From: Agathobacter sp.
GTDB lineage: Bacteria > Bacillota > Clostridia > Lachnospirales > Lachnospiraceae
Direction of reading: 5' to 3'
Assembly: GCA_022772675.1 (NCBI GenBank)
Contig: JALEZW010000011.1
Span: forward strand, 1-64,000
DNA length: 64,000 nucleotides
This document shows, in pieces, positions 178 to 12,277 of the stretch. Within the stretch, counting starts at the first letter, position 1; the number at the start of each line of letters is the position of its first letter. Under the pieces are notes generated by a model. It was not told where the DNA came from. It saw nothing but the letters and a program-made list of their open reading frames with translations, and ran no database searches. The position numbers and the translations under genes were made by a program.

Positions 178-205
178 AAAAATGGACAGGTTAAAAAACC
201 TGTCC
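178..205 (-). terminator. Rho-independent terminator after the SipW-type gene cluster
   Basis: Arms 184-192 and 197-205 form a perfect 9 bp stem (GGACAGGTT with AACCTGTCC). On the minus strand it is followed by ATTTTT. It lies about 65 nt after the stop of the gene at 271-837 and closes the locus transcribed from 11.3 kb down. Confidence 0.8.
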
Positions 206-270
206 TCTGCTGTTACTGTTTTCACATTCTTTGTACTACTAAACAACGCAGCTTTTCTATCTCTTTTTCT

Positions 271-837
271 CTATTCAATCATAACTCCATGCCAGGGATC
301 TGTACCAGAATTAAAATCCGGATTAAAATAAGATGCCTGTATCGCTTCAGCAGTCAGATCAATCTTAAAGGTCTTGCCGGAAATGAAATTTCCCCAGCCG
401 GTGGGAATGGTCACATGTTGAAACAATGTAATACTCGTACCGGGATAAACAATATGGGGATAATAGTAATATCCATTGATATACTTCCATCCATGAACAT
501 CGTAAGAAAGCTCTGAAAGATGTTTTGCAAGTTCTGCATCCGGGCTCTTCGCATGTACGCGAACGCGGATATATGCCGGCTGTGAATCCGCTGCCACCTT
601 TACAATCGGCTGCTTGCTGATTACATCCCCCGGATGGATTCCATCATAGGAAATACCGTCTGAATATTCCTTTTCCCCTGTAGAAACCGTCTTCTCCACC
701 AGACTGATCTTCACTTTTCCCATGGTAATAACATTCGTGGCACTATCATGATCCGTAAAATATGCAAGGGTACCGCCGATGGCTATGGTGAGAACCATAG
801 CCATTGCAGCAATGCTTAATGAAATTTTTCGTTTCAT
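271..837 (-). CDS. SipW-type signal-peptide protein, TasA/camelysin-like (188 aa)
   Basis: Small secreted protein predicted to be a fibre or matrix subunit processed by a SipW-type signal peptidase. The N-terminus has a charged start, a hydrophobic core and the GGTLAYFTD motif (about residues 21-29) typical of SipW-dependent export signals. The remaining ~155 residues look like the compact beta-rich TasA/CalY fold: a HPGDVISKQPIVKV stretch followed by YIRVRVHA matches the conserved strand pattern of these proteins. There is no membrane anchor or sorting motif. It is last in its unit, 38 nt after the SipW-type gene at 876-1688 and before a strong terminator, and should be co-expressed from the direct-repeat promoter at 1743-1776. 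Family assignment rests on the signal motif and length; a role as fibre subunit is inference. Confidence 0.8.
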   Translation of the reverse strand: MKRKISLSIAAMAMVLTIAIGGTLAYFTDHDSATNVITMGKVKISLVEKTVSTGEKEYSDGISYDGIHPGDVISKQPIVKVAADSQPAYIRVRVHAKSPDAELAKHLSELSYDVHGWKYINGYYYYPHIVYPGTSITLFQHVTIPTGWGNFISGKTFKIDLTAEAIQASYFNPDFNSGTDPWHGVMIE

Positions 838-875
838 AAAATAATCTCTCCAATATCAGAGGTTCACCGTTATTT

Positions 876-1688
876 CTAATTCTTAACAAGATTTAATAAC
901 TCTGTAACTGCCTCGTCAATAGTCAAGTTTCTGGCCTGAACCATGTATCCGCTTACATTAACCTTAAGGTCCGGAAGCTTCTTTAAATCAGACGGAGTTA
1001 CCTTTCCATCTTTATCAATTACATAGTAATTCTCTTCCGGATCAAAGGTCTCCTTTGTAACACTCTCCTGTACATAATACTTTATAACTTCATTTTCATC
1101 CTCAGATGACTTAAGAGCCTGCTTATTACCTGCAGCATTTTCGTAATCTTCCTTTGTAACCTCTTTCCAGACCGTTGTGGTCTTAGATTTTTCGTTGAAC
1201 TCAACCTTAATCTGCTTATCAATCTGAATATGATCGAAGATGGGAGCCGTCTTAGTGTCAGCCTTTACAACATCCTTATATACAAAAAATTTGTAGTCAG
1301 CCCCCTTTACCGGAACCTCTTTCCAGTTTACGGTATTAAATCCCTCTGCCCCTTGATAGATCACAGTGGCATCCTGTTTAAACGTATCATAATCGACTGC
1401 CGTATTGTCCTTTGAAAAATCAACCTTTACCGCTACATATGCATCAACAGAATCCTTAAGATTTTCAAGAACCGGCTCCTTGACAATCAGATCCCCCGGC
1501 ATATACTTAGATGCAGTCTTTTCATCAAATTTCTCATCGATTCTTCCTCCAAGGTTCTTATCCTCACCGGTAAATACGTTCTCAACGGTACTTGTTCTGG
1601 ATGTCAGGTATGCAAGAGTACCACCGATTGCAAGAGTACCTGCCAATGCTGCTGCACAAGCTGTAAGAGCTGTTTTCTTCTTATTCAT
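876..1688 (-). CDS. SipW-type signal-peptide protein (270 aa)
   Basis: Secreted protein with an N-terminal Lys-rich segment, an Ala-rich hydrophobic core and the motif GGTLAYLTS, the hallmark of SipW-processed TasA-like proteins. The sequence MPGDLIVKEPVLEN followed by AYVAVKVDF (roughly residues 65-90) matches the conserved edge of the TasA/CalY beta-sandwich. It is longer than typical camelysin (about 200 aa) owing to a Lys/Glu-rich central segment around residues 150-225. I choose the ATG at 1688 because AAGGAG lies 7 nt upstream; an in-frame TTG two codons earlier is less likely. It is first in a two-gene unit with 271-837 behind a direct-repeat promoter (1743-1776). Role as matrix or fibre protein is inferred. 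Confidence 0.82.
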   Translation of the reverse strand: MNKKKTALTACAAALAGTLAIGGTLAYLTSRTSTVENVFTGEDKNLGGRIDEKFDEKTASKYMPGDLIVKEPVLENLKDSVDAYVAVKVDFSKDNTAVDYDTFKQDATVIYQGAEGFNTVNWKEVPVKGADYKFFVYKDVVKADTKTAPIFDHIQIDKQIKVEFNEKSKTTTVWKEVTKEDYENAAGNKQALKSSEDENEVIKYYVQESVTKETFDPEENYYVIDKDGKVTPSDLKKLPDLKVNVSGYMVQARNLTIDEAVTELLNLVKN

Positions 1689-1742
1689 TTTCAATCTCCT
1701 TGTTTACTGATTTCTGACACACTATGTATCATTTACGGTAAT

Positions 1743-1776
1743 AGTATATCCTAAAGCAGTCACACAAGAGTCACAC
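1743..1776 (-). promoter_or_regulatory. Direct-repeat promoter A (GTGTGAC x2, 11 bp apart, then -10)
   Basis: On the minus strand the heptamer GTGTGAC occurs at 1776-1770 and 1765-1759, a period of exactly 11 bp. Ten nucleotides later is the -10 box TATACT (1748-1743). No TTGACA-like -35 is present at the usual distance. The same arrangement occurs at 7284-7316 and 11303-11336. Direct repeats with one helical turn spacing just upstream of -10 are the known operator type of SARP (OmpR-wHTH + BTAD) activators, and such a regulator is encoded at 7403-8602. Confidence 0.7.
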
Positions 1777-1808
1777 CCAGGGAGTTTTTTATGAACAGAT
1801 ACTTTGAA

Positions 1809-2486
1809 TCAATAAATCTGCAGTCCCTCACTGGTGGGATGATCCCACGCCTGATTCACAGCAGCTGTGCCATGTGCCTGCACCGCATCCACCAGTACAT
1901 CCACCTGTAAATTTCCCTCCTCTGCCAGCTTCGGAAGCACCGCATTCTCCTTAAGTTTCACCCCCTCCAGCAAATAATCCGTACACTGATCCGGTTCAAC
2001 AGGTGCCGTAAAATAGTAATATCCGTCATCCCCGGGAACCCAGTCCCCTTCTACATCGTTTTCCTGCGTCAGTTCACCGGTGCTGCTGCTTCTTAGATTC
2101 AACTGATAATCAATATACGGAGCCGGGTCAAAAGCCACCACCACCGATTTTTCTTCCTTGGGATTTTCCTTCATCCAGGTGGCTGCAAGCTGTACCCTTA
2201 CATAGACAGGAACAATGTTAAGGTTTCCTTCCCCCTTACTGTTTGTGCGGCTGTTTTTCACACGAACCTGTTTTACAATTTCCCCCTCCCGGATATCTTT
2301 CGGCTCAAAATGTTCCTCCACAACCACATTGACAATTCCGGGATCAAAGGGATTTGCCACTCCAGGTGTTCTACATGTAAGAAATGCAAAGGTTCCACCT
2401 AATGCTAAAACTGTAATAAACACAGCTGCACCGACAGAAAAAAACAGCTTCTTATTTTTCAGGATTCTTTTTACCGGAATTTTCAT
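1809..2486 (-). CDS. SipW-type signal-peptide protein (225 aa)
   Basis: Secreted protein with signal sequence ending in GGTFAFLTCR (near residue 32 of the chosen frame), a variant of the SipW-dependent motif. Later it has a valine-rich strand (VVVEEHFEP) and the VPVYVRVQLA stretch expected of a TasA-like fold. Start chosen at ATG 2486, where GGAGG lies 5 nt upstream; an ATG four codons earlier has no spacing for a ribosome binding site. The start lies inside the 3' end of the sipW-like gene (35 bp overlap), so the two are translationally linked. The order VWA protein, signal peptidase, this protein resembles the yqxM/tapA-sipW-tasA logic of Bacillus, in which the peptidase sits beside its substrates. 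No anchor is seen. Confidence 0.8.
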   Translation of the reverse strand: MKIPVKRILKNKKLFFSVGAAVFITVLALGGTFAFLTCRTPGVANPFDPGIVNVVVEEHFEPKDIREGEIVKQVRVKNSRTNSKGEGNLNIVPVYVRVQLAATWMKENPKEEKSVVVAFDPAPYIDYQLNLRSSSTGELTQENDVEGDWVPGDDGYYYFTAPVEPDQCTDYLLEGVKLKENAVLPKLAEEGNLQVDVLVDAVQAHGTAAVNQAWDHPTSEGLQIY

Positions 2487-2979
2487 TCTCCCCTCCATCC
2501 TTTTCTGCAGACCAGATCAGATCCCCCATATATATGAGAATCATGTCTGTAATAATAGCTGCAATATAAATAATCTTCCCCATGGGCTGACTTACCCTGT
2601 CAGCAAGGTAACCAGCTATAGGAATATTAAATACAGGTTTACCAATTACATTATCAAAGGAAACTGCACTGCCATCCTCAATATTATTGGCATCCCCTTT
2701 TGTTGTAAAACATTTGTTTTTTTCATCAATTTTCACCACCCGGTGGGTCACAAGCGTATTGTCATCCAGATAAAACGTCACCGGATCCCCTGCTTTAATG
2801 GAGGAAGCATCCATATGCCTTACATACAAAAGTGATCCCACCGAATAAGCCGGCTCCATACTTCCACTTAATACAATCATTGGTTCTATCCCAACAAGCT
2901 TTGGCACATACATAATTGCAATAAAGGCAAGAAGTACAATCAAAACCGCTGTTGTCGTAAAATTCCATACTTTTTTCAT
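2452..2979 (-). CDS. sipW: Signal peptidase I, SipW (ER-type)
   Basis: Membrane signal peptidase predicted to cleave the SipW-type precursors encoded around it. Of 175 aa, the N-terminal segment WNFTTTAVLIVLLAFIAIMY is a transmembrane helix. The catalytic Ser lies in VLSGSMEPAY (about residues 36-45). A His in LVTHRVVKID takes the place of the Lys used by P-type bacterial enzymes, which is the diagnostic of the ER/SipW class with a Ser/His pair. A second membrane helix (IIYIAAIITDMILIYMG) is near the C-terminus. Start at ATG 2979 with GGAGGAG upstream, 4 nt after the stop of the VWA gene; longer upstream frames overlap that gene and were discarded. Substrates are inferred to be the proteins at 271, 876, 1809 and 10577. 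Confidence 0.93.
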   Translation of the reverse strand: MKKVWNFTTTAVLIVLLAFIAIMYVPKLVGIEPMIVLSGSMEPAYSVGSLLYVRHMDASSIKAGDPVTFYLDDNTLVTHRVVKIDEKNKCFTTKGDANNIEDGSAVSFDNVIGKPVFNIPIAGYLADRVSQPMGKIIYIAAIITDMILIYMGDLIWSAEKDGGENENSGKKNPEK

Positions 2980-2983
2980 CTTT

Positions 2984-5900
2984 CTACTCCTCCATATTAG
3001 GTACATCAGCTGACTGATCCGGTAAGTGCGTATCCAGGATTTCACCGCCGGACCGGAATACATTTTTTACATGTGTCGTATCCCCAAACCAGGATGGAAA
3101 ATGTTCTATATCCGTGTCAATATTGTTTTTAAAAGTCAGCACAACATCCGCGAAGGTTTCTTCTCTATCTCCATTTTTTTCTGATTCACCCACTCGCACA
3201 ACACCTGCCCGGAATTTTCCGAGATAAAAGATTCCATCCATCTCCTTAAATGCCTGCCCGGTCTCTCCCTCTGAACTAAAGTTATTCTTTGTCTCCCCTG
3301 TACCACGGTCCACCCAGGTTTCATTTATTTTATTCAGATTATATTTCCATGTCCACTGTGTATCTTCCACAACCCTGTAGACACCGGCTTTCAAGCCAAC
3401 AATCTTTTGGCTGTCATTTCCGTTTACAGTAACAAAAAAACTTTCAAGCAGCTCGGCGGTCCCATCCGTAACGGACTCCTTCGCCGCATTCTCCGGATAA
3501 CGTTCCACCCGGAATACGGTAGACTGCTCTGCTTCAATCAATTCTTTCTGATTTGCGGAATAAGGAAGGTTGCTTAGAAAATCGCGATTGTATTTCTTTT
3601 GAATGACTAATGTCCCATCAACCACCTTCACATGATAGGTTCCTGTTGCAGAAGCAGACCGTTTTCCACTTTCTGAAGCCCTCTGCATACTTGCCGTATA
3701 AAAATTGCCATCACTGCTCATAGACTTCGCTGCCTCTTCTGCCTCCTTCGTATCGTCTGCAATATTTGGTGCTGCAATCACTTTAAAATAATAGGTTGTA
3801 TCTGTCTCCGGTGAGAGGCCGCCGATATATTTGCCAAGGTTCGATATTGTCTTCGGAACTTCCGTATCTGACGCATAGACCTTTTTTCCTTCTGCATCCG
3901 TACACTGATAAGAAATCGTCACAGAGGATGCATCTTTTTTCTGTTCTGGAAAAATACGGTCAATCTGATTCCGGGTAAAATAACGGGCTAAAGACTGCCC
4001 CAGAAAAATCGTATCCTCAGTACTGCCAGCCTGAACAATCAGCCGGACATTTACCTTCGGCTGTTCAAAATAATACCATTTTCCCAAAACCTGAACTCCT
4101 GATTCCGGTCCGTTGGTATTGACTGCGTTACCACCAAGATAATCCTCATCCGCCTGCAGGTAAATCGTTGCTTTCCAATCTTCCAGAGCATCTACATTCC
4201 AGGAAACATAACTGCCATTTTCATCCCTTCCTATTGATCCGCCTCCTGCATCGATCACTTTAAACTTAGGATTAATATAATCTCTTACTTCACCACTATA
4301 ATACTCAAACTCCCAGTTTTCATCAATAATCAGTTTACCGATTCTCTGGAACAAATCTTCCATATTAGAAGCACTCCCCTTGAAATAGAGAGGATTCCCA
4401 TCTTCATCATACGATGCCGCATTTGTAAGAAGTCTCTCAGCAATTTCCATATAGTCACTGATATCAATTCCAACAGAAATCACTTTCACACCATCTATTG
4501 CCTTTAACCGGGTGGCATAGCCCTCTTCCCCGTTTAAATCAGTTTCCACATTGCTTCCGTTTGGACATCCATCTGTAAACAGTACCACATAACGCTTTCT
4601 GGAAGGTTCCTGATTGTCTTTATTATTTTCTGATTTTTCCCTATCGACCTGTTTTTCAGTAACCTCAGCAGTCTCCACTGATATCTGAGAATCCTCCTGA
4701 CTGTTAACCGGCTCACTAGTTTCTTTCGTTTCTGTTACCGCAGCACCTGAAGTCTCAGTTGTAAATAACCTGCCTGAAGATTCCGAATCACCCGGGGCAT
4801 CCGCTTGTTCTGTCTTGGTATTCTCGGTCTCTGTATTGATACCATCTTCCTTACTATCTTCCGGTATTTCAGTCACGGTTTCTGCCACCTTTTTCGTCAT
4901 TACAGTATCTGTATCAGCATCCATTACGTCTGCTGCATTCCGTGCCGCTCTTTCTTCCTCCAATGCTGCATTTACCATTTCCAACGCATACTGCATTCCA
5001 AGATCCTGACGGGTTCCACCACTGATTTTCCCATCCAGATGTTCTATTTCCATAAGCAGTTTTTCCACATTATCTGATGTCAGTTTTAAAAGTTTACCAT
5101 CTAAAAGCTGACCTGCTTCTCTATTAAAGTAAATAAGCCCGATCCGGTTATTCTCTGAAATCTTTGCCATACTTACAATAAAGTTTCTGGCAGAAGCCTT
5201 TAACTCATTGATACGCGGGCTTGGGTTATCCGAAGTGTAAAACTGGATATTACTGGAAATGCTGCAGGAATACGTATAGCGTTCGTTCCACTGTCCATAG
5301 GCATTCTGTACCCGGGTGACTTTTTCACTTATCGTCCCCTGATTCTTTGACCCGCTCATATACTCATTGGAAGAATCATAATATATCCAGTTATTTCCAT
5401 TCCATACAGTCTTATATACCGTTGCCTGCACATTATTGGATACAAAGTAATAGGAACGATTCCGATCCAGCATTTCTCCCTCATCCCGCTGATAAGGCTG
5501 CAGACTGGATGGAAAGTACATGGAACCGGATGCATCCAGAACAAGAATAATGTCTACCGGATTTTCCGTAACAGACTTCTTAGAAAGCTTTGCCTCGGCA
5601 GCAAGATTGATTTTGTAGGTGCGATCCTGCCAGTTCACAAGCTTTGCGCTCTTGGATAAGGTGACCCCCAGCTCGGAAGACTTACTATTATACACCGTAT
5701 TATTTCTCACCAGGGACTGATTTCCGTCTGTATCCTTTTCCATAAGACTAAATATCAGGTTGTCAGAAGCATTTCCGGAAACAAGTAAGGTGTAATTTCT
5801 TCCATCTCCACAATATCCCTCCGGAACCGTAGTCTCCTTTAATGTGTAGACACCGGTAGCCAGATCACGGAATGTCACCTTGCCATTTTCATCAGTAAAC

Positions 5901-7237
5901 TGTTCCCCTCCAACCACCTGATCCTTTGAATCATAAAGAGTAAAACCGGCTCCATCTACAAAATCTCCCTGGGGAGTTTTCTTAGTCAGTGTATAATCTC
6001 CCTTGATATCCTTATTCGTATTGATGGTGGGAAGATTAAATTTAATTTTACAATTTGACTCCCCGCCTCCCCTCTCTAAATAGAAGAAACGAAGGGTATG
6101 CTTACCATTGTCAAGAACACAGTCCAGTCCCAATTCTTTAAAGGAAACAGACTCCCCCGGAGCAAAATAGTTTCCGTCATTACCGGGTTTTCCCTCATAT
6201 GGTTTAAATAAACCACAATTATATATGACCTTCTGATTTGCAAAATCAATCTTCCCGGAGCACTTCTCATGGATTCCTCCCAAATCTAATGCCAGTTTGT
6301 CATCCACAAACACCCAGACATCATCATCGCCGGAAAACTCAAATACACAGTCCTTACCATTATATTTTCCATCTTCGCTCATAGTGAAATCCGTTTGAAA
6401 CTGCATACTGAAATTTACATTTTCTTTTTCATTCTTTGCAGACAGAGGGAAAAATCCGTGAGTATTGTCATCTGCTATTTTGATTTGTCTGCTGCTGTCA
6501 TGATACTTATAGTCATATTGGTCACTGTCCAGTACATAATAACCATCTGAATAGATAAACTCTGTATCGATACCAGCATAGACCTTACGGCCATCATCCG
6601 AAAGTTCTTTGTTAAAAGGGTCGTATACAGATAAGTTAAACTGCGGTTTATTGTTTTCCCCCAGTATATTGCCCACAAGATTCTGATAGGCCACAGCCTC
6701 ACCATTCGCTTTCCATTCTCTTCTGGCTGCATCCAGTGAGTTATAGGCATTTTCACCATCATGGTTATCTTTTGCCCAATTGGGAATACTCTGATTCACG
6801 TCATAAAAGAGAGATGTCATCTGGTATCTGCTGTTTTCCGGATAACGGACATCCTCTCGTCCCTTGCTACAGGTGGACCAGTCCACAAAAAGCATTGCCG
6901 GAACATTTTGTCTGCAGTCATGATGTTCTACTGTTGCGCCCCAATCCTTCCAGGACCACTTCTCATTATCCAGCCAGTATACATCGCCATTATGCAGTTT
7001 CTTATACTGCTCATAGGCCAGTTTCACCGTCTGCCTGTTGACTTCATCTCTGTCAAAATCAATCAGGTCGGTCTTAAAGTATGTAGTACTTCCCTCCTGG
7101 GGTTCAGGCGTCACATCATTCTTTGTGCTCTCATTGATTTCTGATGCCACTGTTTGTGAATATCCGGCCAGCAGCACAGATGCACACAGTGTCGATGCAA
7201 TGGTTCTTTTGAGTAATATTCCTGCAGACGTCTTCAT
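2984..7237 (-). CDS. Large secreted VWA / fibro-slime / SpaA-like surface protein (1417 aa)
   Basis: Giant extracellular protein, probably an adhesin or fibre-associated protein. Signal peptide at residues 1-33 (ending near SQTVASE). Order: fibro-slime/PA14-like domain around 230-400 with the motif FSGDDDVWVFVDDKLALDLG; a SpaA/prealbumin-like domain about 415-475 (GAGFTLYDSKDQ... YTLKETTVPEGY); a von Willebrand A domain from about 560 with MIDAS motif DASGS near residue 567. The VWA domain is split by an acidic Thr/Glu-rich low-complexity insert (about 770-880) before its LFTDG strand. Beta-rich C-terminal region follows. There is no LPXTG motif and no C-terminal membrane helix, unusual for such a protein. 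RBS GGGAGG precedes ATG 7237. It is first in a unit with sipW and a SipW substrate, under promoter B. Confidence 0.85.
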   Translation of the reverse strand: MKTSAGILLKRTIASTLCASVLLAGYSQTVASEINESTKNDVTPEPQEGSTTYFKTDLIDFDRDEVNRQTVKLAYEQYKKLHNGDVYWLDNEKWSWKDWGATVEHHDCRQNVPAMLFVDWSTCSKGREDVRYPENSRYQMTSLFYDVNQSIPNWAKDNHDGENAYNSLDAARREWKANGEAVAYQNLVGNILGENNKPQFNLSVYDPFNKELSDDGRKVYAGIDTEFIYSDGYYVLDSDQYDYKYHDSSRQIKIADDNTHGFFPLSAKNEKENVNFSMQFQTDFTMSEDGKYNGKDCVFEFSGDDDVWVFVDDKLALDLGGIHEKCSGKIDFANQKVIYNCGLFKPYEGKPGNDGNYFAPGESVSFKELGLDCVLDNGKHTLRFFYLERGGGESNCKIKFNLPTINTNKDIKGDYTLTKKTPQGDFVDGAGFTLYDSKDQVVGGEQFTDENGKVTFRDLATGVYTLKETTVPEGYCGDGRNYTLLVSGNASDNLIFSLMEKDTDGNQSLVRNNTVYNSKSSELGVTLSKSAKLVNWQDRTYKINLAAEAKLSKKSVTENPVDIILVLDASGSMYFPSSLQPYQRDEGEMLDRNRSYYFVSNNVQATVYKTVWNGNNWIYYDSSNEYMSGSKNQGTISEKVTRVQNAYGQWNERYTYSCSISSNIQFYTSDNPSPRINELKASARNFIVSMAKISENNRIGLIYFNREAGQLLDGKLLKLTSDNVEKLLMEIEHLDGKISGGTRQDLGMQYALEMVNAALEEERAARNAADVMDADTDTVMTKKVAETVTEIPEDSKEDGINTETENTKTEQADAPGDSESSGRLFTTETSGAAVTETKETSEPVNSQEDSQISVETAEVTEKQVDREKSENNKDNQEPSRKRYVVLFTDGCPNGSNVETDLNGEEGYATRLKAIDGVKVISVGIDISDYMEIAERLLTNAASYDEDGNPLYFKGSASNMEDLFQRIGKLIIDENWEFEYYSGEVRDYINPKFKVIDAGGGSIGRDENGSYVSWNVDALEDWKATIYLQADEDYLGGNAVNTNGPESGVQVLGKWYYFEQPKVNVRLIVQAGSTEDTIFLGQSLARYFTRNQIDRIFPEQKKDASSVTISYQCTDAEGKKVYASDTEVPKTISNLGKYIGGLSPETDTTYYFKVIAAPNIADDTKEAEEAAKSMSSDGNFYTASMQRASESGKRSASATGTYHVKVVDGTLVIQKKYNRDFLSNLPYSANQKELIEAEQSTVFRVERYPENAAKESVTDGTAELLESFFVTVNGNDSQKIVGLKAGVYRVVEDTQWTWKYNLNKINETWVDRGTGETKNNFSSEGETGQAFKEMDGIFYLGKFRAGVVRVGESEKNGDREETFADVVLTFKNNIDTDIEHFPSWFGDTTHVKNVFRSGGEILDTHLPDQSADVPNMEE

Positions 7238-7283
7238 TCTGAGACCTCCCGATCAAATTTTTATGTATACCATAACTTAGTTT

Positions 7284-7317
7284 ACTATAACAACTGTAAG
7301 TCACATAAAGGTCACAT
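7284..7317 (-). promoter_or_regulatory. Direct-repeat promoter B (ATGTGAC x2, 11 bp apart, then -10)
   Basis: Minus strand: ATGTGAC at 7317-7311 and 7306-7300, period 11 bp, then exactly 10 nt, then the -10 box TATAGT (7289-7284). No -35 box at the normal place. The leader to the VWA gene start is about 40 nt. Geometry is identical to the sites at 1743-1776 and 11303-11336. Confidence 0.7.
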
Positions 7318-7402
7318 TGCAGCAATTTATATCGATAGGATTTTTGTTCAGATAGATATGAGAACAAAATATAACAGTTCGGTGTGATTCCGAACTGTTA
7401 TT

Positions 7403-8602
7403 TCAATCTGCCTGTTCTTCGATCTGTGACACCTGTTCAATATTAACTTTAAAATTTATTTTTGAATATTTCGGATTTCTTTGATATAAACTCGATATGA
7501 TCCGTTTTGCCACCTGCATGGCATGCTCTTTCGTACAGTTTGGGAGCAAAAGAATAAACTGGGAATCACTATACCTGGTGGTCACATCTCCTGCCCGCAG
7601 GCACTCACTCATTATCTCCTCAATTGCCCCCATTGCCTGTCTGATTCGATACCTCGCAATTTCCTCCGTTGCACTTTCCGGTGCTTCCACAGTTATTAAA
7701 AGAAGATTTTCCGGATCTGTTGACCTTGTACTTTTTCTGACTTCCAGATGATAAATCTCTTTAAATACCGGATACCCGCAGAAAAAGGCTCCAGACTGTT
7801 TTTCTTCCTCAATATCTTCTTTCACTTCTTCTATATCATATGTTGTTTTCCCTTTAGGGACAGACATCAGTTCTAGGTACACACTATCCAGAAGCGGTGT
7901 TGCCCGAACCCCAAGCTCTTTCTCCAGAATCTTCTTTGTCTTCTCATAAGAATCCATTGCCAGCTTTGTCTTTCCACAGCCTATGCGGGCACGAATCTGA
8001 TATGTATAAAGTTCTTCATCTGCACACTCTGATTTCAGTGCTTCTGTGCAGAGATTCTCAAGGGATTCATACCTTTCCTGATCCAGGTAGATTTCTGCCA
8101 GTTCCTTTACGGCAGATAAATAAAGAGAGTGATAATAGGTGCTCAGTGTCAAAACCCAGTACATATCCGTAAGTTTTCCCATAAAATCTCCCTGATACAG
8201 GGAAAGCGCACTCTCAAAATACCGGATTGCCTGCTGCTTATCTGCCTGCTTTTTTGCAAGATTGATGAGCTTTTCAAACTCTTCACAGTCTATCTGCACT
8301 TCCACTTCCGGATTCCAGCGGTAGGATCCTCTGTTTGTCAAAATAAAATCTTCATTTCCAAACAGGTTCGATAGGCTCTTTCGCAAGCGATAGATAAGAT
8401 TTTTAAGAGCTCCCGCTGGATTGTCAGTTTCCTCCTCCTGCCAGATGGCAGATGCAATATTCTCTGTTGTCAATGTTTTGCTGCGGTACAATAATATGTA
8501 GATAAAGAGCCGTGACAGCATAATGGAACGGAGTTTCTCATCATCTGCCATATTTTTTCCATCTGTAACCCGGAACTTTCCCAATGTGGTGACTCTCAAC
8601 AT
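7403..8602 (-). CDS. SARP-like transcriptional regulator: wHTH + BTAD + degenerate GGDEF (399 aa)
   Basis: Cytoplasmic DNA-binding regulator. Residues ~1-95 form an OmpR-like winged helix (LGKFRVTDG ... IASAIWQEE ... LKNLIYRLRKSL ... GSYRWNP). Residues ~100-245 match a bacterial transcriptional activator (BTAD) TPR-like domain, rich in helical repeats and ending in GVRATPLLDSVY. The C-terminal ~130 residues resemble a nucleotidyl-cyclase/GGDEF fold: RAGDVTTRYSDSQFILLLPN sits where R-GGDEF-LLP is expected, but the signature is SDSQF, so it cannot be a diguanylate cyclase. Start chosen at ATG 8602 with GGAGAGAAGG just upstream; a 24-residue longer frame lacks a convincing RBS. It lies between the surface-protein units and is the obvious candidate to bind their 11-bp direct repeats. 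That link is inference. Confidence 0.85.
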   Translation of the reverse strand: MLRVTTLGKFRVTDGKNMADDEKLRSIMLSRLFIYILLYRSKTLTTENIASAIWQEEETDNPAGALKNLIYRLRKSLSNLFGNEDFILTNRGSYRWNPEVEVQIDCEEFEKLINLAKKQADKQQAIRYFESALSLYQGDFMGKLTDMYWVLTLSTYYHSLYLSAVKELAEIYLDQERYESLENLCTEALKSECADEELYTYQIRARIGCGKTKLAMDSYEKTKKILEKELGVRATPLLDSVYLELMSVPKGKTTYDIEEVKEDIEEEKQSGAFFCGYPVFKEIYHLEVRKSTRSTDPENLLLITVEAPESATEEIARYRIRQAMGAIEEIMSECLRAGDVTTRYSDSQFILLLPNCTKEHAMQVAKRIISSLYQRNPKYSKINFKVNIEQVSQIEEQAD

Positions 8603-8732
8603 GTACCTTCTCTCCCATGTCGGCAAATCCAAAATATGTTCAGTAACCGGCCGACCTCCCCCTCCTTTCCACACGATAGATACAAAATATGGTCTTTACC
8701 TTTATCATTATATAAAATAATAAATTTTTTAT

Positions 8733-9746
8733 TCAGCTTTTCTTTTTCCTGTAAATTACAACAGCAGCCACCACAAGCACTGCCACAGAGCCTATAAGAA
8801 CATATACAATCCAGCTTTTATAATCTTCCTTTTCGATGGATGCCAGTGGGACTTTCTCATCCTCAATCTCATCCCCCACCGTATTTCCATCCGGTTCTGT
8901 TTCCGGTAACGGTGGAACATCTCCATTCTCTCCTGCCTGATCCGCCGGCTGTGCTTTTTCCTTCGTCCCCGCAGGATTCTGCTGCTGTCCATTTGCTCCT
9001 GTACCATCTGTCATCTGCCCGTTACCGGTATTTGCAGGATTCTGCATCTGAACTGTAGTTGTCACCACGTTGGTGGTATCATCATAAACGGTCCTGACAG
9101 TAGTTTTCCCGGGAATATAGGTTACTCCCGTATATTTGTAGGAAAAGGTCAGTGTATTCTCAGAATCTTTTGATAAGACCATAGACTCTTCGCTGTCGTC
9201 CGATTCATATTCCTCAACCGTAACCGGAGCAAACGTAATCCTCTCTCCCTCACTGCCATATCCCATTATGGGAGCAGCTACCGCTTCCCCACTCTCCTTA
9301 TCCACAAAGGTAACTGAATAAGGAACCGGATCCACAAGCACCCCATAATCCAGTACATATTCTTCATTATGACGAACCCTGTCAGAAGCCTCCGGTCCCC
9401 AGGAAGCCTCACTCAGCATGGTATATTCCTTGTTTTCTTTTAAAAAACCTGAAAATAAAGCATTAAAATCAGATGTCTGTGCCACAACTCTGCCAAAAGT
9501 CCGATAAAAAACCTCTTCCATGCTCTGTCCACAGGACGCAGTAAGTTTAATATACTCCGATTTTACAGAAACAAGACTTTTCATTTTTACAGCTGTCTCT
9601 ACTTTTTCAACATCAAAACTTCCTGCATTTCCCGCCCGAAACGTAACCGTATAGGTAGATGCCGCCGGAGAAGTCAAAGGACACCATGTAACCGTAAGTA
9701 TCAAAGCCGCCAAAACTGCCGCAGCCTGCTTAAGGATTTTCTTCAT
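8733..9746 (-). CDS. Membrane-anchored surface protein with MucBP-like segment (337 aa)
   Basis: Predicted surface protein. Signal peptide residues 1-29 (hydrophobic core AAAVLAALILTVTW, cut near SPAAS). Residues ~145-205 (PYSVTFVDKESGEAV ... VTVEEY) look like a MucBP/mucin-binding type beta repeat. A Pro/Gly/Asn/Gln-rich linker (~235-300) leads to a C-terminal helix (IVYVLIGSVAVLVVAAVVIY) and KKK tail. VPLAS precedes the helix where a sortase signal would be, but no LPXTG is present, so it may simply be anchored by the helix. Start ATG 9746 overlaps the 3' end of the upstream gene by 17 bp, showing co-translation with 9730-10530. Binding partner unknown. Confidence 0.72.
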   Translation of the reverse strand: MKKILKQAAAVLAALILTVTWCPLTSPAASTYTVTFRAGNAGSFDVEKVETAVKMKSLVSVKSEYIKLTASCGQSMEEVFYRTFGRVVAQTSDFNALFSGFLKENKEYTMLSEASWGPEASDRVRHNEEYVLDYGVLVDPVPYSVTFVDKESGEAVAAPIMGYGSEGERITFAPVTVEEYESDDSEESMVLSKDSENTLTFSYKYTGVTYIPGKTTVRTVYDDTTNVVTTTVQMQNPANTGNGQMTDGTGANGQQQNPAGTKEKAQPADQAGENGDVPPLPETEPDGNTVGDEIEDEKVPLASIEKEDYKSWIVYVLIGSVAVLVVAAVVIYRKKKS

Positions 9747-10530
9747 AATCTTTCCCTTCCTTTCTCTGCTTCATGACTGCAGCTGCCACGAGAATAACTC
9801 CGACAGAAAATACAACTGTAAAAAATACATATTCCATGCTGTCCCCGGTTTTTACCAGTTTTGTCTTCTTAATATTGATGAATCTTTTTTGATGCTTAAT
9901 AACCTCCCTGTCCTTATCCTTTGTTACCGGATGCTTCACATCACATGCCCGAAAACTTAATGCCAGCTGTGCCACAGCATCTGTATAATCATTGCTGCTT
10001 CTATTATCATTTCCCTCGCCTTCCAGCTTAAGAGTCAGATAAAGCTTCGTCCCCTCTCCTGCATCCGTTTCTGCCAGGAACGTGTATTCCTCAAGTTCAT
10101 CCAGCCCGGCCAGCCCATCATGGCTTCCCCTGCCGGATGCATCATAACCACCGGTCTTGGACTGCAAAAGGGATACTGCTTCTTCTCCCTCTCCCACAAA
10201 AAGATTAAACTTATATGCTCCTCCGGAGGACTTATTATCATTTTCCAGTGTGTCAAGGGTCTTCTGTGAAATATAAAATCGAACTTTATCTTTACTTCCA
10301 TTGTGCAGATAAATCGTCTGTGTTCTCTCATCTCCCGGTGCCATATCCTTAAAAGCGTCCAGAGACAGGGATTCCACAGGGATTTTTTCGCTCTCATCTA
10401 AATAGTAGGTAAATTCTTTTTCCTCATTCAGGCAGACCGTGGGAACCGGCTCCGCAGCATCCACTGCCCTTTGCACGCCTGTACCTGCCAAAATCAAAAC
10501 CATCAGAAAAAAACCTATCTTTTTCTTCAT
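9730..10530 (-). CDS. Surface protein with TasA-like region and LVKTG-type C-terminal tail (266 aa)
   Basis: Signal peptide 1-27 (MKKKIGFFLMVLILAGTG ... VDAAE). The following region, with MAPGDERTQTIYLHNGSKDKV (~residues 47-67), resembles the PGD-strand-N pattern of TasA/camelysin domains. The C-terminus has KKTKLVKTGDSMEY, then a hydrophobic helix and a charged tail, the layout of a cell-wall sorting signal but with Val in place of Pro (LVKTG for LPXTG). ATG 10530 is chosen because AAAGGAG lies 7 nt upstream; a longer frame from 10599 would start inside the upstream gene without a site. It lies between a SipW-type gene and the MucBP-like gene in one operon. Likely an anchor or base for the fibre; this role is inference. 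Confidence 0.72.
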   Translation of the reverse strand: MKKKIGFFLMVLILAGTGVQRAVDAAEPVPTVCLNEEKEFTYYLDESEKIPVESLSLDAFKDMAPGDERTQTIYLHNGSKDKVRFYISQKTLDTLENDNKSSGGAYKFNLFVGEGEEAVSLLQSKTGGYDASGRGSHDGLAGLDELEEYTFLAETDAGEGTKLYLTLKLEGEGNDNRSSNDYTDAVAQLALSFRACDVKHPVTKDKDREVIKHQKRFINIKKTKLVKTGDSMEYVFFTVVFSVGVILVAAAVMKQRKEGKDYEENP

Positions 10531-10576
10531 GACAACTCCTTTATTCACGAAATTAAACCGTATCATAATTTCAGAA

Positions 10577-11242
10577 TTATGACCTGGTTTCTGACACACT
10601 CATCAGAATCTCCTTCTCAAAATGCGGAAACACACCCCATTCCGCTGCAATTGCATCATCGCTGTTATCCGCCTGCACTGCAGCCGCATCTATATCCAAG
10701 AGGAAATGTGCGTCAGCATATTGATTTCCCATATCCGTATCAAAAGTAATTTCATCAAGAAAAGAAGCCGTCTCTCCATAGGCCAGTGGTTTCGAATAAT
10801 ACAGCACCGCTTCCTCACTGTCACAGTAAGCCACGATCCAGTCTCCGATTTTTATCTGATTTTCATAGGATTTCACAAGAGGATAGGCTTTCCCATTCAT
10901 CTTTAATACAACATGGCTCTTTTTCGCCTCTGCATCCGCAAGTGTATCCTTTGACCATCCAAAATGGACCGTTACCCTGGTGTACAGGTCATAACCGCCC
11001 TTCCTGTCGTTCAAGACCCGGTAATCCAGTGAAGTGGTTCCTCCCGGAACCACTTTGATTTCTGAAATAGTGCTGCCATTATTTTTTGTATCACCGGACA
11101 AAACTGAAATTCCCAGTGATTTCTCCGAGATATTCTGAAGTACGGTTCCTGACTCCACATATCCGGATGCAAATGTCCCCACCATTGCTGCAGAAGCAAT
11201 AAGCCCCGCTGCTGCAAGAAGAAGCAGATACTTTTTCTTCAA
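10577..11242 (-). CDS. SipW-type-like secreted protein, TTG start (221 aa)
   Basis: First gene of the promoter-C unit. I place the start at TTG 11242: GGGAGG lies 8 nt upstream and the translation then begins LKKKYLLLLAAAG, a proper signal peptide. The next in-frame upstream start would add 27 hydrophilic residues and include the promoter. The signal ends AAMVGTFASGYVESG, close to the SipW motif G-T-[LF]-A-x. The mature part has VVPGGTTSLDYRVLNDRKGGYDLYTRVTVHF, a TasA/CalY-like pattern, and ends without an anchor. Possibly the major or initiating subunit of a second fibre branch; its fold assignment is from pattern only. Confidence 0.72.
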   Translation of the reverse strand: MKKKYLLLLAAAGLIASAAMVGTFASGYVESGTVLQNISEKSLGISVLSGDTKNNGSTISEIKVVPGGTTSLDYRVLNDRKGGYDLYTRVTVHFGWSKDTLADAEAKKSHVVLKMNGKAYPLVKSYENQIKIGDWIVAYCDSEEAVLYYSKPLAYGETASFLDEITFDTDMGNQYADAHFLLDIDAAAVQADNSDDAIAAEWGVFPHFEKEILMSVSETRS

Positions 11243-11302
11243 AACAAATTCCTCCCGTGGTGATTCCACAATTTGCTGCGTTACACCGTAACCATTTTGA
11301 TC

Positions 11303-11336
11303 ATTATAGATCTCTATCGTCACACAGAGGTCACAC
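11303..11336 (-). promoter_or_regulatory. Direct-repeat promoter C (GTGTGAC x2, 11 bp apart, then TATAAT)
   Basis: Minus strand: GTGTGAC at 11336-11330 and 11325-11319, period 11 bp, 10 nt spacer, then a perfect -10 box TATAAT (11308-11303). No -35 box. It lies between the metF stop (11351) and the TTG start at 11242. Same geometry as promoters A and B. Confidence 0.72.
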
Positions 11337-11350
11337 TGGAAAAGAGTTTG

Positions 11351-12217
11351 TTATGCAGTATAAATATGTGACAGATTATGCATGATTGCCGCTGCTACAT
11401 CCGGCTTATTCATAGAATAAATGTGAATATGGCTGGCACCATTTGCAATCAGATCAATAATCTGTTCCGTGGCGTAGGCGATTCCCGCCTGTTTCATAGC
11501 CGCCGGGTCATCTCCAAACCGGTCAACGATACTTAAAAATTTTGCAGGAACCAGATTTCCGGTAAGAGAAATTGCCCGTTTTACCTGGGATGCATTCGTC
11601 ACCGGCATGATTCCGGCTGTTATCGGTACATCAATCCCCTTTGCCAACGCTTTGTAGAGAAAACGGTAATAGATATTGTTGTCAAAAAACATCTGGGTGG
11701 TCAGGAAATCACATCCTGCATCCACTTTTTCTTTCAAATAATTTAAATCTTCATCCATGTTAGCAGCTTCCGGATGCCCCTCCGGATAACAGGCTCCACC
11801 GATACAGAAATCACCTTCCTCTTTAATCTCACGGATCAATTCAATGGCATGGTGGTATTGATTGGGAAGTGGAAAATCTGCATTTTCCGGAATATCTCCA
11901 CGAAGTGCCAAAATGTTTTCTATGCCCCTGTCTTTGAGTTCCCCGATCACTGTCTGCACCTTTTCCCTGGTAGAAGACACGCAGGTCAAATGGGCAATCG
12001 CCGGAACCCCAAAAGAATTGATGGTATCTGCTATTTCCACTGTATAATCACTGGTTCCTCCGGTTGCCCCGTAGGTGCAGCTGATATAAGCAGGATTTAA
12101 TTTTGCAATTTCTTCAGCTACCGACTTATAATTATCAAGCTGTGAACCTTTCTTCGGTGGAAAGATTTCACAGGAAATGGTTACATCCTTATTCTTTAAA
12201 ATCTCTGATACTTTCAT
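11351..12217 (-). CDS. metF: Methylenetetrahydrofolate reductase
   Basis: Flavoprotein reducing 5,10-methylene-THF to 5-methyl-THF for methionine synthesis or, in acetogens, the methyl branch. The 288 residues are the usual length of bacterial MetF. Seen: SCEIFPPKKG near residue 20 with the catalytic Glu; YISCTYGATGG; LTCVS; NILALRGDIP near residue 95; CIGGACYPEGHPEA near 140; DFLTTQMFFDN near 170; a TAGIMPV segment near 200. ATG 12217 is chosen because GAGGGAG sits 8 nt upstream; the longer frame from 12247 adds ten charged residues without an RBS. It follows a greA-like gene. Nothing links it functionally to the surface genes downstream. Confidence 0.95.
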   Translation of the reverse strand: MKVSEILKNKDVTISCEIFPPKKGSQLDNYKSVAEEIAKLNPAYISCTYGATGGTSDYTVEIADTINSFGVPAIAHLTCVSSTREKVQTVIGELKDRGIENILALRGDIPENADFPLPNQYHHAIELIREIKEEGDFCIGGACYPEGHPEAANMDEDLNYLKEKVDAGCDFLTTQMFFDNNIYYRFLYKALAKGIDVPITAGIMPVTNASQVKRAISLTGNLVPAKFLSIVDRFGDDPAAMKQAGIAYATEQIIDLIANGASHIHIYSMNKPDVAAAIMHNLSHIYTA

Positions 12218-12277
12218 CTTTTTCTCCCTCGTCTTTCTTATATACATCTATACATCCTTTTACCAATAGATCATGTA

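Follow-up and report, generated by a model that had tools for sequence, protein, structure and literature searches.

SARPs are familiar from actinobacteria as switches for antibiotic genes. As a family they bind direct repeats with an 11-bp period, located about 8 bp from the −10 box and overlapping the −35 region, and they activate transcription through contacts with sigma region 4 and the beta flap. In Streptomyces, AfsR and the small SARPs target antibiotic genes through an operator that reads CGTTYATCG (AfsR–afsS promoter), and AfsR carries a C-terminal NOD and TPR part. Among fibre loci, tapA-sipW-tasA of Bacillus subtilis, which combines a SipW-type peptidase with SipW-dependent fibre substrates, is under the control of SinR and AbrB, not of a SARP. 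The sipW-bsaABCRSD locus of Clostridium perfringens, with its SipW-like peptidase, BsaA-like subunits and a regulator within the locus, is controlled by the two-component system BsaRS (PMC7395162). Here we describe a locus of Agathobacter sp. (Lachnospiraceae) that resembles both in its genes but encodes a SARP-type regulator and has three operators. It occupies the minus strand at 184-11336 of the window, by which we mean the whole 64-kb stretch analysed (contig JALEZW010000011.1, positions 1 to 64,000), and all coordinates are positions in it. On the evidence of sequence comparison, we give a probability of about 85% to the reading that the protein encoded at 7403-8602 is a SARP-type activator that binds direct repeats ahead of three transcription units, A, B and C, and switches them on together.

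Neither the SARP fold nor the SARP promoter geometry is new; what appears to be new is a SARP-type regulator that carries a degenerate GGDEF domain and is predicted to act on SipW/TasA-type fibre genes in Lachnospiraceae. A full-text literature search, judged from titles and abstract openings and thus weak evidence of absence, gave no SARP/BTAD-type fibre regulator in Lachnospiraceae among the matches listed, nor did the matches listed include a regulator of gut-clostridial surface-fibre genes. In contrast to AfsR and the small SARPs, which are actinobacterial, the system is found outside the actinobacteria, has RTGTGACY as its operator repeat, adjoins near-consensus TATAAT boxes and has predicted fibre and surface genes as its targets. 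The regulator (7403..8602, minus strand) has an N-terminal OmpR-like winged helix-turn-helix (wHTH) followed by a BTAD, or SARP, domain (PF03704, E 5.3e-21); its Trans_reg_C match, at 24.7 bits, lies just under the 26.2 cut-off, and its top fold matches are EmbR and AfsR. Domain and fold matches thus agree with the original prediction, made from the sequence alone, that a wHTH-BTAD protein is encoded in the locus. At the C terminus, a degenerate GGDEF fold takes the place of the NOD and TPR part of AfsR and of the FHA domain of EmbR of Mycobacterium tuberculosis (PMC10936776).

One operator stands ahead of each unit, and each is an exact match, on the minus strand, to the predicted RTGTGAC-N4-RTGTGAC: operator A (GTGTGAC-CTCT-GTGTGAC, 11319..11336), operator B (ATGTGAC-CTTT-ATGTGAC, 7300..7317) and operator C (GTGTGAC-TCTT-GTGTGAC, 1759..1776). 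At all three sites the second repeat ends exactly 10 nt ahead of a TATAAT-like −10 box, as had been claimed; the boxes are TATAAT for promoter A (11303..11308), TATAGT for promoter B (7284..7289) and TATACT for promoter C (1743..1748). Each unit opens with the pattern TGTGAC-N5-TGTGAC-N10-TANNNT, the distance being 10 nt from the TGTGAC hexamer and 9 from RTGTGACY. The description of the repeats as identical 11-bp units was loose, since it is the RTGTGAC heptamer that recurs with an 11-bp period while the spacers differ. The claimed lack of a −35 box stands: over 64 such sites, the best match to TTGACA at 16–18 nt averages 1.83 of 6, compared with 2.61 in shuffles.

The exact motif TGTGAC-N5-TGTGAC is not scattered through the genome of this organism: in 2,795,153 bases on 73 contigs, it occurs at the three sites of the window alone. 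With one mismatch allowed, the genome gives 8 matches and the reversed pattern also gives 8, so near matches are background and a motif match alone is no proof; similarly, in a weak shuffle test of the window with two mismatches allowed, 10 of 100 shuffles reach three matches. Across the genus, exact matches occur in 22 of 62 genomes (48, versus 12 for the reversed pattern). An ortholog of the regulator, at a cut of at least 42% identity that was picked after inspecting the genus search result, is present in 13 of these genomes (as pieces in G006 and G048), and the motif is found in all 13 (38 matches) versus 9 of the 49 others (10 matches; Fisher p 6e-8). The box TA[TA]NNT lies at exactly N10 in 31 of the 38 matches versus 3 of the 10, and no other −10 distance exceeds 7 matches in the ortholog genomes, even though the 38 include weak matches (those in G009 and G013 beside a secA-like frame, the C78 pair and C56 in G037, and others without a −10 box at N10). 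Comparison of the orthologous loci shows the motif conserved in relatives with the same genes and the same spacing. In one of them (L067, on contig C76 of G006), two overlapping frames together make up the regulator ortholog, and an operator is still present ahead of them.

This fixed spacing bears on whether the regulator might bind the repeats yet repress, covering the promoter until a signal through the degenerate GGDEF domain releases it. In favour of this, the repeats cover part of the place expected for sigma region 4, and the −10 boxes come close to the consensus. We nevertheless hold repression to be very improbable: −35 boxes are absent, with poorer matches than in shuffles, the exact N10 spacing fits an activator that contacts the polymerase, and the geometry is that of AfsR.

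In a sample of 397 genomes of the family, 25 genomes carry the full motif, with 46 matches in total, whereas no match to the reversed control was seen. Relatives of the regulator (E 1e-40 or better) are found in 61 of the 397 genomes and in 20 of the 25 with the motif (p 8e-14). Thirty-seven of the 46 sites are in genomes with a regulator match, and 30 of these 37 lie within 15 kb of a regulator gene, a linkage count that leaves out the 9 sites in genomes without such a match. In the other direction, 41 of the 61 genomes with a relative are without the TGTGAC form; the strict motif misses variants, the operators before TasA-like genes often having TATGAC in the first repeat. Many genomes are incomplete, and kinship inflates the genome counts. 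In a class-wide sample of 341 genomes, the motif occurs in five genomes outside the family, with 16 matches versus 1 control match overall. Four of the five encode a full-length regulator, three of them on the contig with the site, and all four have Asn at the key position of the recognition helix discussed below. The fifth, G620, has a single atypical site and two relatives that match the SARP part only; we take the site as chance. Separately, in one fibre locus (L165:8225-11190) the regulator gene is present twice in tandem, the copies having 39 and 41% identity to that of the window.

That the motif as a whole is a chance or compositional feature, with three unrelated promoters behind it, could be argued from the mismatch-tolerant searches, in which it is no or hardly commoner than in controls. 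The 46 matches against none in the family and the exact N10 spacing rule this origin out for practical purposes, as does, on the same side, the conserved gene order.

Further evidence comes from the recognition helix of the regulator (residues 62-81; 8360..8419, minus strand). AfsR contacts each 11-bp repeat over its first 8 bp, and R92 and T88 of its helix touch bases: T−38, and G−36 or, in the second repeat, A−25 of the template strand (PMC10936776). A phmmer alignment, gap-free over the helix, places Arg72 on AfsR R92 and Asn68 on AfsR T88; the numbering of the AfsR paper was matched to the aligned letters by hand. Where a regulator is present without the motif, its surroundings were searched de novo for 11-bp repeats (38 loci, 17 matches versus 6 in shuffles; a further run covered 32 loci). 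In a different regulator group, this revealed TGTAAC-N5-TGTAAC-N10 followed by a TATAAT-like box at five loci, and a sixth locus, L176, also has a TGTAAC operator. Across the family, TGTAAC gives 39 matches in 19 of 397 genomes versus 3 in controls. No third operator word was found near regulators without TGTGAC, a result that, for regulators with V, R, H, I or A at position 68, covers L168 alone; the Val68 regulator there is accompanied by a TGTGAC site, and the same genome encodes an Asn68 regulator as well.

The residue at position 68 and the operator word go together. Among the family matches, Asn68 regulators are found in 33 genomes and Thr68 regulators in 22, with both in 3. TGTGAC is present in 20 of the 33 Asn genomes and in none of the 19 with Thr only; TGTAAC is present in 11 of the 22 Thr genomes and in none of the 30 with Asn only, and 8 further TGTAAC genomes have no Thr regulator among the regulator matches. 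The position was read in 71 of 72 regulator matches and 60 of 61 genomes; the one left out, in G214, is Ala, so neither group changes. If the −10 box is set at −12 to −7, the variable base falls at −36 and −25, the positions touched by T88 in AfsR, although this numbering may be off by one. Several regulators (L187, L188 and L174) adjoin proteins in which W-Q-G and F(R)S-(F/V)(L/M)EL-like motifs, recognized by eye, recur; in L187 and L188 these proteins stand under a TGTAAC operator. Two Thr68 relatives without a site (L205 and L209) adjoin a frame that, by eye, resembles the beginning of rpoB, which suggests that some members of the family have other roles.

Direct repeats next to the −10 box, spaced by roughly one helical turn, are likewise bound by OmpR/PhoB-class proteins. 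The repeats might accordingly be the operator of another regulator of that class, for example a response regulator encoded elsewhere, with the SARP-type gene merely its target. The response regulator BsaR runs sipW-bsaA of C. perfringens (PMC7395162), and Streptomyces PhoP and AfsR have a common site (PMC10972967). We judge this explanation improbable: co-occurrence and close linkage go with the SARP-type gene in many genera (linkage having been examined for that gene), the motif base shifts with the recognition helix of the SARP-type protein itself, and Pfam reveals no other DNA-binding family among the 10 proteins scanned at 271-12247.

Several observations weigh against the SARP-type regulator as the activator acting at these sites, and support for binding and expression control is comparative throughout. 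At the 42% cut, 10 exact matches lie in nine genus genomes without an ortholog; with a looser ortholog cut in the genus (E 1e-30, 17 genomes), the motif is found in 14 of 17 versus 8 of 45. The regulator loci of G008, G009 and G013 lack a good site close to that gene; for G009 and G013 the exact matches are about 8 kb off, in a frame that is secA-like by eye, and better sites lie elsewhere in those genomes. Five family genomes with the motif have no relative at E 1e-40, for which a more permissive profile search gave full-length relatives in G132, a fragment in G067, C-terminal-domain matches only in G098 and G306, and nothing in G271. The strict motif is missing in 13 of 33 Asn68 and 11 of 22 Thr68 genomes, and the TGTAAC sites in G107, G326, G381 and G421 are not near a regulator that was found. 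Finally, a quick tree (67 rows over 340 aa, with the G006 and G048 pieces excluded) needs just one change between the Asn and Thr groups, at a branch support of 38; because one change suffices, the joint switch of Asn to Thr and G to A may be a single evolutionary event. Overall, motif–regulator co-occurrence, physical linkage and the joint shift of motif and helix support the regulon that the original prediction proposed, and two of the conditions named as refuting it, a random spread of the motif in the genome and a lack of conservation in relatives, do not hold.

The genes downstream of the operators fit a SipW/TasA-type locus, with a SipW-like peptidase (TIGR02228) and SipW-dependent substrates (TIGR04088 on two proteins), all over cut-off; from these family matches, the substrates are putative fibre subunits. 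All features are on the minus strand. Unit A begins with an exported SipW-substrate-like protein, P10577 (10577..11242; TIGR04090 weak, E 0.009), relatives of which are also encoded downstream of an operator elsewhere. Two exported proteins without a Pfam or NCBIfam family at E 0.01 follow: the product of 9730..10530 ends, by eye, in a sortase-signal-like KTG, hydrophobic stretch and charged tail, and that of 8733..9746 in a membrane anchor. The regulator gene is the last of the unit, which closes with a terminator-like hairpin of 12 pairs directly 3′ of it (7371..7401). If the four genes form one transcript, as we infer, operator A would also drive the regulator gene. Unit B encodes a large surface protein of 1417 aa with PA14/fibro-slime, SpaA and VWA domains (2984..7237), a SipW-like signal peptidase I (2452..2979; TIGR02228, E 8.1e-32) and a BsaA/TasA-like fibre protein (1809..2498; TIGR04090, E 2.7e-13, 50.2 bits, below the cut-off of 60). 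Unit C encodes two SipW-dependent exported proteins, TasA2 (876..1688; TIGR04088) and the camelysin/TasA-like TasA1 (271..837; PF12389, TIGR04088), and is followed by a terminator-like hairpin (184..205). The start predicted at 1688 is an ATG that lies 6 nt inside the open reading frame (ORF) listed from TTG 1694.

A weight matrix places 96 sites in 60 of 89 loci versus none in resampled sequence, a contrast that is partly circular because 64 of the sites trained the matrix. For 58 of the 96, the gene that follows is most similar, among the proteins of the window (BLASTP, E 1e-4 or better), to the VWA protein (24), to a TasA-like protein (21) or to P10577 (13); for 2, it is a regulator gene. 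In G029 (L082), the same three genes as in the window each follow an operator. Other relatives, with 10 proteins scanned, have sites before an Ig-like repeat protein, a SpaA/collagen-binding-like protein and several proteins without a Pfam family. By a crude rule, a signal-like start is seen in 62 of the 67 ORFs called at the 71 sites scoring at least 26, versus 242 of 568 control ORFs. Beyond what had been proposed for the locus, sites in relatives thus also precede other predicted exported surface proteins.

The degenerate GGDEF domain (residues 273-395; 7418..7786, minus strand) likewise goes beyond the earlier reading. It has RYSDSQF in place of RYGGDEF, and the diguanylate cyclase motif GG[D/E]EF is absent from the 66 of 67 aligned rows that reach that place; YSxxQ is found in 48 of the 66 and the Gln is kept in 64. 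REC-GGDEF and HD-GYP-GGDEF proteins end in the same degenerate module (L264, L266, L272 and L274-L291; for example, L284:2823-4172, plus strand). A REC-GGDEF-type gene with this module in the organism's own genome is apparently split into frames of 186 and 97 aa (L273, contig C20, about 1611-2440).

In the activator model, each of the two RTGTGACY repeats, which lie one helical turn from each other, would be occupied by one copy of the regulator. The pair would substitute for a −35 box and bring sigma-A RNA polymerase to the good −10 box in an AfsR-like manner. Unit A would then supply one exported subunit, a pair of cell-wall or membrane proteins and, by positive feedback, the regulator itself; unit B the VWA/fibro-slime surface protein, the SipW-like peptidase and the BsaA-like subunit; and unit C two SipW-dependent subunits. 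Activity of the regulator is probably gated by its degenerate GGDEF domain, through the binding of a nucleotide or of a partner protein of the cyclic di-GMP (c-di-GMP) type. Dimerisation, activation rather than repression, and such a signal are what we infer from this arrangement. A wider proposal is tentative, at somewhat less than even odds: a SARP class in several Clostridia families in which the degenerate GGDEF domain couples transcription of fibre and surface proteins to the c-di-GMP network, with either a guanine nucleotide as its ligand or the corresponding domain of REC-GGDEF and HD-GYP-GGDEF enzymes as its partner, and in which one helix residue sets the DNA word, Asn for TGTGAC and Thr for TGTAAC.

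Surface-fibre genes in gut clostridia are predicted here to be run by a SARP device whose operator is known to single-base precision. The operator definition lets regulons be read directly from genomes, and the two-letter recognition change can be tested in a single experiment. Through the degenerate GGDEF module that these proteins share, the role of c-di-GMP in these bacteria can be approached, and the presence of a broken signalling-enzyme domain in the regulator hints at how cells might decide on building fibres.

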